From: a virus
Strand: one strand, 5' to 3'
Virus record (IMG/VR): IMGVR_UViG_3300000116_000220
Location: 1-24,011 of that record
Length of the DNA: 24,011 nucleotides
Shown here: in pieces, positions 6,246-10,333 of the stretch
Layout: every line of letters begins with the position of its first letter
How positions within the stretch are numbered: position 1 is the stretch's first letter
The notes under the pieces: generated by a model
The model's database searches: none
What the model was told of the DNA's origin: nothing
What the model saw: the letters and a program-made list of their open reading frames with translations, nothing else
Translations under genes and position numbers: made by a program

Positions 6246-7886
6246 TTAGTAAGCGCCACCTAGACGACCAGCCTTCATGAAAGGAGTAGTCAAGTAACGG
6301 CTATCTGCACCAACAATACGGATGATTCTGTAGAACCTCGCAGCTGGAGAAATTTGAGCAGTCGCGTAGCGAGTAATCAAACCTTTTCTTGGCTGGAAGG
6401 TATTAGGGTCCGTGATAGTTGGAAGCATTTGGAGCGGAATGTACGGAGCGTACACGAAGCCAGCATCCATCGGAGAAGAGCCCTTGTAACCAAGGAGAAG
6501 CTCGTCTTCAGGATATAGCGGGTCAACGTAAACGTCGTATTGTCCCATCCACTTGCCTTTGTATGTGATAGCAGCGCCTAGCTGTCCTGCGTTATCCGTA
6601 GGGATACCGCCTTCAAGCTTAGCAGCCGATTGCAACATAGCAGCGACAAAAGGAGAACATACAATCCAGTTAGCACCACCGCGTAGGGTAGTTCTGTAAA
6701 TATCTTGCGAAGCAAAGTTAATTACACCAATCAAGTTGGCGTATACTTCACCTACGTGACGAGGAGCAAGTCCAAGTGCAGTCGTACCGAAGTCGCAGAA
6801 GAATACGTTAGACCCATTACTGCGTCCAGGCATATCACCACCATCTATGCTACCAGGGTTAGACCCCGCTACTGTAGCAGACAAAGCGGCATCACTACCA
6901 CGACCAGCAGGCTCGTCGTAAGTAAATGCACCAGGAGCAGCACCAGCTGTTGAGGAATTATGAGGAAGCTGACCCGTAGGAGCTCCATCAGAACCAAAGT
7001 TGTTAGCGTTAGCTTGGTTTTGGTAGTCATATAGACCGCCACCAATCGGGTTACCGACAGAATTAAAGTCGTAAGCGATGTTACGGATTGATTCTACCAA
7101 TTCACGGTCGATTTCCAAAGCAACTTCCTTAGAAAGAAGCTCAGTCAATTCACGCTCTAGGTCCAAGTTGTGGTAAGCACGAAGGTCTTGTGAAGCTTCC
7201 AACGTCCATAGGGCGCGGAACTTACGAGTACGTGCAGTTACAGCTTGCTGTTCGATTGTGAAGTTAACTTCAGGGATAGCTGAAGCTGACAAACGCTCAC
7301 CAGCTGACACAAAGTATTGAGCAGCGAGTAGGTTTTCATTCGGGAAAGCAGCAATCTTACCACCAGCAGTACCAGAACCCATAGTTGTCATAGCAGACAA
7401 ACCTACGCCAGCAGCAGTACCAGAGTAAGCGAAGTTACCTGAGGCAGTGATACCAGCATCTGAGTCCAAAGAACCGATGTTGTTTTGTGTCTGAGCGATG
7501 TTACCACCATATACCATACGGTACTTAGAGTAAACCACTTCACCACGGCGAGTGCCATTAGCACCTTCACCTGCACGGTTGTAACCTAGATAGAAAATCT
7601 GGGAAACAGGACCTTGCATTGGCTGTACGCCACAAATCTTGTTGGCGATTAGCTGCGGGAAAACCCGCCGAACGAGAGGGAAAGCAAACTTTTGGAAAGT
7701 TCCGAGGTTACCCACGGTTGTTGCTTCTTCAAGAGTACCGTGGTCTTGAGAATTCTCAGTAAGAATGCTCTTGGCTTGGTTCTCTAAAAGAACGGCAGTC
7801 ATCTGACGTGTTGATTCGTCTGTGATACCTTCCAGAATTGGCTCCCACTTCTCACAAAGGGACGTTGCAAATTTGTCATTTAACAT
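6246..7886 (-). CDS. gp23: Major capsid protein, T4 gp23 family
   Basis: The 546-aa product builds the head shell with an HK97-type fold (T4 gp23 is 521 aa). The N-terminus carries a helix WEPILEG then a maturation site, LEE before ATTVGN (52-60), which fits the Leu/Ile-x-Glu rule of the gp21 protease and would release a 54-residue propeptide. The conserved ICGVQPMQGPVSQIFYL follows at 84-100. The core LEASQDLRAYHNLDLERELTELL and EIDRELV helices lie at 229-264, and the C-terminal part has YAPYIPLQM and DPNTFQPRKGLITRYA (about 479-508). A Gly/Ser/Ala/Asn-rich stretch at about 277-375 looks like a surface insertion. An AAGG motif lies 15 bases before the ATG, which follows the scaffold stop by 4 bases. 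Confidence 0.96.
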   Translation of the reverse strand: MLNDKFATSLCEKWEPILEGITDESTRQMTAVLLENQAKSILTENSQDHGTLEEATTVGNLGTFQKFAFPLVRRVFPQLIANKICGVQPMQGPVSQIFYLGYNRAGEGANGTRRGEVVYSKYRMVYGGNIAQTQNNIGSLDSDAGITASGNFAYSGTAAGVGLSAMTTMGSGTAGGKIAAFPNENLLAAQYFVSAGERLSASAIPEVNFTIEQQAVTARTRKFRALWTLEASQDLRAYHNLDLERELTELLSKEVALEIDRELVESIRNIAYDFNSVGNPIGGGLYDYQNQANANNFGSDGAPTGQLPHNSSTAGAAPGAFTYDEPAGRGSDAALSATVAGSNPGSIDGGDMPGRSNGSNVFFCDFGTTALGLAPRHVGEVYANLIGVINFASQDIYRTTLRGGANWIVCSPFVAAMLQSAAKLEGGIPTDNAGQLGAAITYKGKWMGQYDVYVDPLYPEDELLLGYKGSSPMDAGFVYAPYIPLQMLPTITDPNTFQPRKGLITRYATAQISPAARFYRIIRIVGADSRYLTTPFMKAGRLGGAY

Positions 7887-7890
7887 AATA

Positions 7891-8475
7891 TTAATTTATT
7901 ACCTTATTTTGGCTAAGGTTAAGCACGTCTTCGGTTAAGAAGATGTTGTTAGCCGCTTCGGGAGAAGTACGACTCGAGTCTGTTTCGTTAGTTATAACTA
8001 CAGCACTTTCAGAAGACTTAAACGGAAGTTTAGAATTTTCTTTAAGCGATTGGTTTGTTTCGTTCAAACTCGATACTTTACTAGAAAGCATTGAGTTTTC
8101 GTGAAGAGAGTTACTTAGCTTAAAGTTTAAAGCTTTAATACTCTCTTCTAGTTCCGCAATCTGCGACTGTTGCTTTGATACTGCAGAATCTACGTCTTGT
8201 GATTCTACTTCAGCTGCAATCATTGCGCGGATGTTTTCATACATACGAAAACCGCGAAGGACGTCATCGTCTGCTTCGAGTTCTTGTTTGGCTACATCCT
8301 TAAGGTCCTCTATTTTAGAGCGTAAAAAGCCACTTACTTTGGCTTCCATAAGCTTAGCTTCTTCCGCGACGCGTTCAGTAACCGCGCCTTCTACAAGACT
8401 AAGTACTTCTTGGAGACCGGTTTCTGATAAGCCGTCTGGGAGTAGTTCGGCGATTTGTTCGATTCTTTTGTTCAT
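7891..8475 (-). CDS. gp22: Prohead scaffold / core protein, T4 gp22-like
   Basis: The 194-aa product is acidic and almost entirely helical by appearance, with heptad-like Leu/Ile spacing from about residue 99 to 145 (QQSQIAELEESIKALNFKL). It should assemble the transient core on which the capsid forms and then be cleaved by gp21. Potential Leu/Ile-x-Glu cleavage sites are frequent (IAE, LSE, LME, LEE, LTE). The last 40 residues are Ser/Thr/Asn-rich. T4 gp22 is 269 aa, so this one is shorter. Identification rests on coiled-coil character and its place between the protease and capsid genes, the T4 order, as scaffold sequences diverge widely. A TAGGAAAT motif before the ATG is the likely ribosome-binding site. 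Confidence 0.85.
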   Translation of the reverse strand: MNKRIEQIAELLPDGLSETGLQEVLSLVEGAVTERVAEEAKLMEAKVSGFLRSKIEDLKDVAKQELEADDDVLRGFRMYENIRAMIAAEVESQDVDSAVSKQQSQIAELEESIKALNFKLSNSLHENSMLSSKVSSLNETNQSLKENSKLPFKSSESAVVITNETDSSRTSPEAANNIFLTEDVLNLSQNKVIN

Positions 8476-8531: not shown

Positions 8532-9137
8532 TTACTTTAAAACTTGCTTTAAAGCAGTTAAGTAAATCCTTTCCGATTCTAGATTGTTGTGGTAATCATC
8601 AAGGGAGCGTTGATTCTCCATTAACTGTTTGTGTTCCACGAGAGATGGGAAGGCGTTTTGGCATGATGGGTCAGCTACCATGTCCCAAGTAATCATACGT
8701 AGATTATCCTGAACCATGTAGGCATCTTCTTTCATGTCGTGTTCTACGCTACCTGTAGCGCGTGAAGAAATACCAATACGAACTCCTGCTTTGATTAGCT
8801 CTTGGAGGATACGTCCTGATGGCGTGTCTAAAAATTCCGCTTCGCCGATTAAATTCTTGCCTTCCATTTTTAAATCGGTGATGATGTGCGAGACGTTAGA
8901 TAGGTGAACCACTTCATCATTTGGGTGGTCTAGCTCACCGCATAGGCGGCGCTCATCTAACATAGGTTGAAGCTTTTGTACTTCTCGCTCTAACAACTGC
9001 GTTGGGTAGATGCGACCGTTTCCATTCTTACGCTCAGCTTCACTAAAGATGCCACGTACTTTCATACTTTTGTTTTTTCCTTTAGCCTCGCTAAGGATTT
9101 GTAGGGGTTGAAAATCGTTGAAGTCGCGTAGTAACAT
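8532..9137 (-). CDS. gp21: Prohead maturation protease, T4 gp21 family
   Basis: The 201-aa serine protease should cut scaffold, capsid and core proteins after Leu/Ile-x-Glu during head maturation (T4 gp21 is 212 aa). The family signature is clear: RKNGNGRIYP (36-45), CGELDHP with the presumed catalytic His71, GEAEFLDTPSGRILQELI (98-115), and VRIGISSRATG with the presumed nucleophile Ser124 or Ser125. VADPSCQNAFP (154-164) follows. The catalytic assignment comes from knowledge of herpes-like phage prohead proteases. The final 35 residues are polar and may be trimmed on activation. Its ATG overlaps the upstream stop as TAATG at 9135-9139, so its synthesis is probably coupled to the preceding core-like gene. 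Confidence 0.95.
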   Translation of the reverse strand: MLLRDFNDFQPLQILSEAKGKNKSMKVRGIFSEAERKNGNGRIYPTQLLEREVQKLQPMLDERRLCGELDHPNDEVVHLSNVSHIITDLKMEGKNLIGEAEFLDTPSGRILQELIKAGVRIGISSRATGSVEHDMKEDAYMVQDNLRMITWDMVADPSCQNAFPSLVEHKQLMENQRSLDDYHNNLESERIYLTALKQVLK

Positions 9138-9646
9138 TATGCTTTTAAGTATGCTAGAAAATCAGAGTGTGATTTTGGTTTTGTTTTTGTTTTTTTCTCC
9201 CTTTTCTTAGGAGCTTTGGATACGTTGGTATTGCCCGGCACTGTTGCTTTTTTAGGGTCTAGACCTTTTTCGCTTCCAGCGAAGTTAACGCCAATGTTAC
9301 CGACTGTCGTAGCTTCTTGAATTTTTTGAATGATTCGCAATGCTTCGTTTAAAGTATCTACCTCTTCAGGAGTTACTGAGACGGGAGGGGTTTCTGGAGC
9401 TTCTGCTACAGCTTCTGCTACAGCTTCCCGGATAACCTCCTCTTTTAGTTCTTGTACTTCAACACCCGGAATACCTTTTAGGAAACTATGTCTCTGTGCA
9501 TCGGACATTTCCACTAAAGTATCTTCAGGATTCATCGCTGGCATATGGGCTTGGTGACCTGTATTAGGGTCATATGGATTCTTGGTGGTGTCAGTTAAGG
9601 CTCCACCAAGAATCTCATCAGCCATTTGTGCCATGGATTTAGTCAT
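9137..9646 (-). CDS. Putative processed head-core protein with capsid-like cleavage site
   Basis: I do not recognise the family of this 169-aa protein. Residues 62-111 are a Glu/Ala/Val-rich helix with several Leu/Ile-x-Glu sites (LKE, IRE, LNE, IQE). At 109-119 it reads IQEATTVGNIG, almost the same as LEEATTVGNLG at the maturation site of the capsid protein. After this point residues 120-169 are strongly basic (APKKREKKTKTKPK) and end in SDFLAYLKA. I infer that gp21 cuts after Glu111 and leaves a basic peptide in the head, in the manner of T4 core and internal proteins. By position it corresponds to T4 genes 67/68. Its start directly abuts the preceding stop, and its stop overlaps the protease start. 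Confidence 0.8.
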   Translation of the reverse strand: MTKSMAQMADEILGGALTDTTKNPYDPNTGHQAHMPAMNPEDTLVEMSDAQRHSFLKGIPGVEVQELKEEVIREAVAEAVAEAPETPPVSVTPEEVDTLNEALRIIQKIQEATTVGNIGVNFAGSEKGLDPKKATVPGNTNVSKAPKKREKKTKTKPKSHSDFLAYLKA

Positions 9647-10333
9647 TTACTTTGCTTTATCGGCTTCTGCTTTGGCTCTATCCGCCATGGTCTGTTTGTG
9701 TGCAGCGTCCATTGCGTCAGACTCGTCGTCCTCTTTCAGCTTCTTCTTCATGAAGTCTAGCTTGCCTGGCTTAGTTTTAGACTTGTCGCCTTTGCGTTCG
9801 CCAGTTTCGAAGTCACCTTTATCGCCTTTCTTAGACTTTTGGTTAGACTTGTCGCCTTTACGTTCACCAGTTTCGAAGTCGCCTTTATCATCGTCGTCTT
9901 TCTTGTCAGCAGACTTATCGCCTTTCTTCTTGCCTTCAGAGAGTTTGATGTAAGTCTTACCGTCCATCTCGTAAACATCACCTAGTGAGTGCTCAGCACT
10001 ATCAAAGGTAACATCGTTAATGAAAAGGTCAGCGTGAGACTCGTCCAGTTGAGCTGTAGTATCATCGTCTAGTTCTTCTGCTAATACAAACAGGTCACCT
10101 TCGATTTCAAACACTTCATCACTCATAGCAAAGACAGAGCTATCCCACTCGTAAAGAGCTGGTGCATCTTGCTGTACGTATTCGTTAGAGTCTACTTCTT
10201 CAGCTGGCGCTGCGGTTGCTTCTAGGTCAGTGACGGGTATAGAGTAACCCAAAGATTCAAGAAGAGTGTTGCGGGAAGCGTCGTCTAAAGAGCGCATACC
10301 GCAAGAATTGGTTTCGTTTATTAAGTATTTCAT
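9647..10333 (-). CDS. Putative head-core protein with short internal repeats
   Basis: The 228-aa protein is of no family I know. The N-terminal part (about 36-135) is acidic and contains three copies of a 14-residue unit: LYEWDSSVFAMSDE (60-73), VFEIEGDLFVLAEE (74-87) and VYEMDGKTYIKLSE (120-133), probably beta hairpins. The C-terminal part is highly charged with two copies of KGDFETGERKGDKS (150-163 and 172-185). Potential gp21 sites include LAE, LSE and LKE. Placement two genes before the protease suggests a prohead core component; this is inference. The ATG lacks a ribosome-binding site: the AGAGGAAA upstream instead fits an ATG followed at once by a stop, 18 bases earlier. Confidence 0.75.
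   Translation of the reverse strand: MKYLINETNSCGMRSLDDASRNTLLESLGYSIPVTDLEATAAPAEEVDSNEYVQQDAPALYEWDSSVFAMSDEVFEIEGDLFVLAEELDDDTTAQLDESHADLFINDVTFDSAEHSLGDVYEMDGKTYIKLSEGKKKGDKSADKKDDDDKGDFETGERKGDKSNQKSKKGDKGDFETGERKGDKSKTKPGKLDFMKKKLKEDDESDAMDAAHKQTMADRAKAEADKAK
9779..9889 (-). repeat. Two direct 43-base repeats, 66-base period, inside 228-aa gene
   Basis: Copies at 9781-9823 and 9847-9889 differ at 3 of 43 bases, all silent in the encoded KGDFETGERKGDKS peptide. The intervening 23 bases also encode Lys/Ser-rich residues. A local in-frame duplication explains it; the silent-only differences suggest selection on the peptide or a fairly recent origin. Confidence 0.9.

Follow-up and report, generated by a model that had tools for sequence, protein, structure and literature searches.

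The function of most T4-type prohead core proteins is poorly known, and so is what T4-type head proteases recognise beyond three residues of their substrates. A review of the field assigns to the prohead protease gp21 only L/I-x-E as its recognition sequence (PMC9026906). In T4, gp21 is reported to shed its first nine residues and the core protein gp68 to be degraded to small peptides, while the N-arms of the major capsid protein gp23 become ordered and contact neighbouring subunits on shell expansion (PMC9958956). Here we describe a Far-T4 head block in which the predicted first residues of mature gp23 recur within a second, candidate head protein encoded nearby, and we show that the two copies co-vary between genomes in two deeply separated clades.

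The locus lies in a 24-kb IMG/VR record, the whole of which was analysed and is called the window below. On its minus strand it encodes, in order, a 228-aa charged protein, the 169-aa protein that is our main subject (the partner), gp21, a gp22-like scaffold, gp23, and neck and tail genes (Table 1). The capsid protein was assigned as a Far-T4 gp23 by its match to the PF07068 profile (4.8e-81). Among the matches listed for it, those to isolates are below 40% identity, with RM378, a 595-kb metagenomic phage, cyanophages and immuto near the top; INPHARED yielded no isolate belonging to the clade of the window. The 228-aa protein has no convincing match among Pfam or PHROG families, is at most a positional counterpart of T4 gp67, and contains an imperfect internal repeat of mixed charge resembling KKGDKGDFETGERKGDKS. 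The gp21 frame, 201 aa in the window, is far longer (425 to >700 aa) in some relatives (L438:3006-4283, L139:1347-3854, L138:1148-3217 and L155:2014-4221), suggesting a fused extension in some clades.

Table 1. Positions in the window of the head-block genes and of the predicted sites and segments discussed in the text.
Feature	Position	Strand	Remark
gp23 major capsid protein	6246..7886	-	PF07068 4.8e-81
LEE-ATTVGNLG in gp23: predicted maturation site and first residues of mature gp23	7701..7733	-	CTTGAAGAAGCAACAACCGTGGGTAACCTCGGA
Alternative LTE site, gp23 propeptide residues 42-44	7755..7763	-	10 residues upstream of LEE
gp22-like scaffold candidate	7891..8475	-	between gp21 and gp23; LxE sites, motif absent
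gp21 prohead protease (S77)	8532..9137	-	PF03420 4e-20, phrog_207 6e-52
LSE near gp21 N-terminus, then AKGK; candidate self-cleavage site without motif	9087..9095	-	
169-aa core-protein candidate (partner)	9137..9646	-	stop overlaps gp21 start
Basic tail of 169-aa protein, residues 112-169	9140..9313	-	12 Lys, net +9
IQE-ATTVGNIG in 169-aa protein: predicted protease site and gp23-like segment	9290..9322	-	ATTCAAGAAGCTACGACAGTCGGTAACATTGGC
Front part of 169-aa protein, residues 1-111	9314..9646	-	acidic in most relatives
228-aa charged protein adjoining the 169-aa gene	9647..10333	-	position only

A first-pass annotation of the window had drawn attention to the peptides IQEATTVGNIG and LEEATTVGNLG, to their likeness at the level of protein rather than DNA, and to a Lys-rich piece of 58 residues after the supposed cut in the 169-aa protein. 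We find both peptides exactly where it placed them, on the minus strand; the residues EATTVGN are encoded mostly by different codons in the two genes; and the tail that follows the Glu of IQE indeed comprises 58 aa, among them 12 Lys, 1 Arg and 4 acidic residues. ATTVGN can be encoded at only these two places in the window. The word common to both peptides is EATTVGN, and a shared word of at least these 7 residues arises in just 5 of 20,000 shuffles of the 169-aa protein, while no other pair among the 15 window genes compared shares a word of more than six residues. The annotation also took the gp23 peptide to mark the place where gp23 is normally cut. An L/I-x-E is present there, but the cut is predicted from this motif, and its exact position is not proven because a second LxE (LTE) stands 10 residues before LEE; an LxE similar to this LTE occurs in 94 of 108 relatives.

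Scanning IMG/VR with gp23, gp21 and the 169-aa protein yielded several hundred loci, and relatives of the 169-aa protein were found in many Far-T4 contigs. Upstream of gp21, the partner carries [LI]xE and then, mostly after 1 to 9 residues, T-[TS]-x-G-x-[IL]-G; the gp23 of these relatives carries the same combination just before TFQKFAFPLVRR. At least 2.6 kb of sequence is available upstream of gp21 in 96 distinct loci, and by a strict pattern 81 of these have the motif in both proteins. Of the remaining 15, about nine show a degenerate version where the motif would be expected, and a recognisable partner is absent from about six of the 96. Partners were picked by a pattern that contains the motif, so that genomes having lost it stay hidden in these counts. 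Four partner calls proved spurious and were left out, L077, L136 and L277 from every test and L311 from the final counts. Only four columns of an alignment of 24 partner sequences are invariant, three of them within the motif. The annotation's expectation that homologues should keep ATTVGN holds for the core T..G.[IL]G, which is retained in the partner family, but not for ATTVGN itself, position 6 of which may be N, S, M, Q, G, A or others in the partner. A motif profile run along seven long contigs gave no convincing case of the motif in a third protein; its weak matches were scattered through large or unrelated frames, and one of the seven (L322) has a degenerate partner. The subclade to which that contig belongs, together with L135 and L325, has a Cys-rich degenerate partner form (EMTTGGCCGCSMSG) and a gp23 that retains TTTGHLG. 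A head block of the same Far-T4 type also occurs in a 130-kb contig (L438:2136-6638, QCKN01000003.1) of the Prochlorococcus single-cell genome AG-409-P03; one member may thus have a cyanobacterial host, or else have been sorted along with the cell as a particle. Judged from the sequences compared, the twin motif is neither a product of chance nor specific to this window.

The two copies also change together. Diverse Far-T4 contigs supplied 107 distinct gp23/partner pairs, over which the similarity of a genome's own pair averages 32.6 BLOSUM units, compared with 24.7 for shuffled pairs (sd 0.69), and none of 20,000 shuffles reaches the observed value. The motif-based choice of partners cannot create this difference, as pairs are compared with shuffled pairs of the same set. 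If shuffling is confined to clusters defined on the gp23 body, the excess remains significant (p<=0.001 at distance cuts of 0.30-0.45, p=0.03 at 0.25), and if one random genome is drawn per cluster, the median p is <0.01 with 68, 24, 18 or 9 clusters; related genomes are not independent, and these two tests correct for that in part. The signal draws both on the core (position -3) and on an inserted spacer, which is long in both proteins of 38 genomes, short in both of 34, long in gp23 only in 32, and long in the partner only in none. The match is therefore not obligatory along the whole length, as the 32 genomes with a long spacer in gp23 alone make plain. Representative gp23/partner pairs are AAYGPGTTTVGSIG / FHYGPGTTTVGSIG (L212), GVTTGSTTVGHLG / GLTAGATTVGHIG (L346) and DITAAATTTGQLG / MSAAATTTGQIG (L314); outside the tested set, the Prochlorococcus-associated contig has QTTVGRLG / KTTVGRIS, with a rare Arg in both. 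The annotation had proposed looking for co-variation of the motif between the two proteins in homologues, and it proves to be much stronger than expected.

A second, deeply diverged clade repeats this within-genome matching with unrelated sequence. In relatives of Flavobacterium phage immuto, gp23 shares about 28% identity with that of the window's clade. Immuto (with its protein immuto198) and these relatives encode, between portal and gp21, a small basic protein of 60-90 aa with an LxE, whose segment matches the start of the genome's own gp23 in many of the relatives. The segment itself differs from that of the window's clade: one such pair, gp23 start and upstream basic protein after the Glu, reads QSSTGTGGTFSAGDGEQW / QSSTGTGASFTPGTGAQY (L469, the partner segment also being given as QSSTGTGASFTPGTGAQYATP) and another ANVNTSGGAGFSAGAGETW / ANVTQVGGSGFTAGAGETY (L201). 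Own pairs in this clade score 32.3, compared with 20.5 for shuffled pairs (0 of 20,000), and the 20 long-form pairs taken alone share 8.95 identities of 18, compared with 7.49 (0 of 20,000). Other members have a shorter segment ending in Y-x-T-P, as in Microcystis phage Mel-JY01, and immuto itself (EMSTTGAVGGY) and RM378 have similar short segments. Because the direct profile match between the partners of the first clade and immuto198 is weak (E 0.009), we do not claim common descent of the two partner families. In RM378 the gene directly before gp21, p116 (L521:5321-6190), contains IEE-MTTTGDIAGYDAP, and in Mel-JY01 the gene in the same place (L522:4494-5030) contains NEE-NVTGNVDGYETP; the partner family thus probably exists in cultured Far-T4 relatives.

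As to the identity of the 169-aa protein, PHROGs and Pfam gave no convincing match, and tblastn against INPHARED gave none. It is best read as a counterpart of T4 gp68, and not as a member of that family because it has no sequence similarity to gp68; homology was rejected on a profile comparison (E 0.3) along with the lack of a convincing PHROG or Pfam match. T4 gene 68 also lies directly upstream of gene 21, with overlapping start and stop, and its product also combines an acidic front with a strongly basic end (-14/+23 in T4). The 169-aa protein has the same acidic N-terminal and basic C-terminal halves, with median charges among partner relatives of -8 for the front and +9 for the tail, and its gene directly precedes gene 21 in the window, other sequence often lying between the two in relatives. 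T4 gp68 is a core protein cut by gp21, whereas the cut in the 169-aa protein is predicted, and gp68 is without a copy of the gp23 N-terminus. We also considered a T4-type internal protein with a capsid targeting sequence (CTS), in which the cut falls near the N-terminus after a targeting peptide of ~10 residues, and rejected it: the predicted site here is at residue 111 of 169. The structure model of the partner consists of separate helices only; at low confidence, it places a helix at residues 93-114, running into the IQE site.

That the 169-aa protein is a substrate of gp21 (S77) is plausible but inferred. The [LI]xE expected of such a substrate is conserved in the partner family, with P3 mostly L or I, and, in the wider form [LIMVF]xE, stands within 10 residues before the motif core in 105 of 108 partners and 107 of 108 gp23 proteins. 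Together with a tail that is positively charged after the motif in 105 of 105 partner relatives, this upholds, by inference, the first-pass proposal of a second gp21 substrate that yields a basic internal peptide. We propose that the protein belongs to the prohead core and fills the place of T4 gp68 there, its acidic, helical front part entering the core. At maturation gp21 would probably cut it after IQE, as it would cut gp23 after LEE, and leave a basic tail of 58 aa whose new N-terminus, ATTVGNIG, would mimic the N-arm of mature gp23, ATTVGNLG. Selection would keep both ends alike if they are read by a common receptor, for which the N-arm site of the gp23 subunits in the shell is the best guess, and the Lys-rich tail could hold DNA or fill arm sites left empty by gp23. 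That the two ends co-vary without sign of DNA copying suggests that they have a docking partner in common while the head matures. On the gp23 profile, the motif segment aligns with T4 gp23* from residue 19 onwards, the N-arm region; the structure model of gp23 (pLDDT 42) is not good enough to locate the arm. The tail might not stay in the head, because T4 gp68 is reported to be broken down further. For this explanation as a whole, predicted cleavage and receptor included, we consider the case evenly balanced. We lean slightly against its fullest form, in which the released basic core peptide would be a co-evolving N-arm mimic, repeatedly re-matched across deep lineages, that takes shell docking sites and ties the shell to DNA or times maturation.

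Several other explanations would account for part of these observations. T, G, A and S are abundant in the segments, and low-complexity Thr/Gly stretches might merely look alike by chance or through ordinary phylogenetic drift; this we find scarcely credible, given that no shuffle in 20,000 reaches the own-pair score, that the excess is significant within clades and with one genome per clade, and that the second clade co-varies with a different sequence. A piece of gene 23 might instead have been copied into the core gene by duplication or gene conversion and refreshed by recombination, giving identity without functional need. The partner and gp23 profiles do align over 34 columns spanning the helix-LxE-motif region (E 6e-5), so that the piece may descend from an ancient common ancestor. 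However, codons identical at matched residues number 219 of 650 in the window's clade, compared with 228 expected from codon usage, and 40 of 89 in the immuto clade, compared with 39.5 expected. Codon identity is thus at chance level in both clades, which rules out recent gene conversion as the cause, and we regard copying as very improbable overall. These counts indicate instead that the likeness of gp23 and its partner is kept, or re-made, by selection on the protein.

Such selection could in principle come from the protease itself. The first-pass annotation had suggested that cleavage here needs the residues after the cut; gp21 would then read P' residues, and both substrates would co-evolve with its groove. 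A changing groove would produce co-variation, [LIMVF]xE precedes the segment closely in both proteins, and the related SPN3US protease prefers Ser at P1' (PMC10052503). If gp21 read these residues, however, its other sites should carry them and their distance from the cut should be fixed, and neither holds. The gp22 proteins have about 12 [LI]xE sites each and the motif in 0 of 107, and the N-terminal LSE of gp21, an LxE conserved among the relatives listed and the counterpart of the T4 self-cleavage site, is followed by AKGK or the like. Moreover, P1' is occupied mostly by Ala in gp23 and mostly by Met in the partner, and the distance from core to Glu differs by at least 3 residues between the two proteins in 33 of 104 genomes, the core lying at about P2' in one protein and P5'-P8' in the other in 32 genomes. 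T4 gp21 substrates examined have no common sequence past P1'. The suggestion is weakened by these observations, and we judge it unlikely. A receptor acting before cleavage is a different possibility: uncut gp23 and the uncut core protein would bind a common prohead partner, such as gp22, portal or a chaperone, and so co-assemble core and shell. Both segments follow a predicted helix in low-confidence models, the helix-plus-motif regions align as profiles, and the core must contact gp23 in proheads. Yet such a receptor would leave the conservation of LxE shortly before both segments unexplained, and part of the similarity sits directly after the Glu, so this too seems improbable to us. Mimicry of the gp23 N-arm fits better than extended recognition by the protease, and we prefer it because the expectations of protease reading fail and the segment aligns with the N-arm region of T4 gp23*.

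In the open literature searched we found no description of such a mimic of the gp23 N-terminus. A segment kept alike in two unrelated head proteins by independent mutation would point to a shared binding site that is directly testable. The twin motif would also offer a sequence-only route to the core protein in uncultivated phages where homology search fails, as it does here, where none of the family libraries searched gave a convincing hit for the 169-aa protein. Like the partner as we read it, the T4 internal proteins IPI-IPIII are trimmed by gp21 after L/I-x-E and leave a packaged product, but their targeting sequence is short and N-terminal, and the residues after the cut in IPII (ARVGAG) and IPIII (ASVVKA) are unlike those of gp23. 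In T4, the gp23 segment was seen in no second protein of the head among those examined. The T4 vertex protein gp24 (gene 24, L124:8324-9607) has LRE and then STTTNSNSIG at its start, somewhat like the Far-T4 gp23 start ATTVGNLG. T4 gp23* differs in having an extra N-fist before its N-arm segment (PMC9958956). This N-fist could have been inserted in front of an arm motif that is older.
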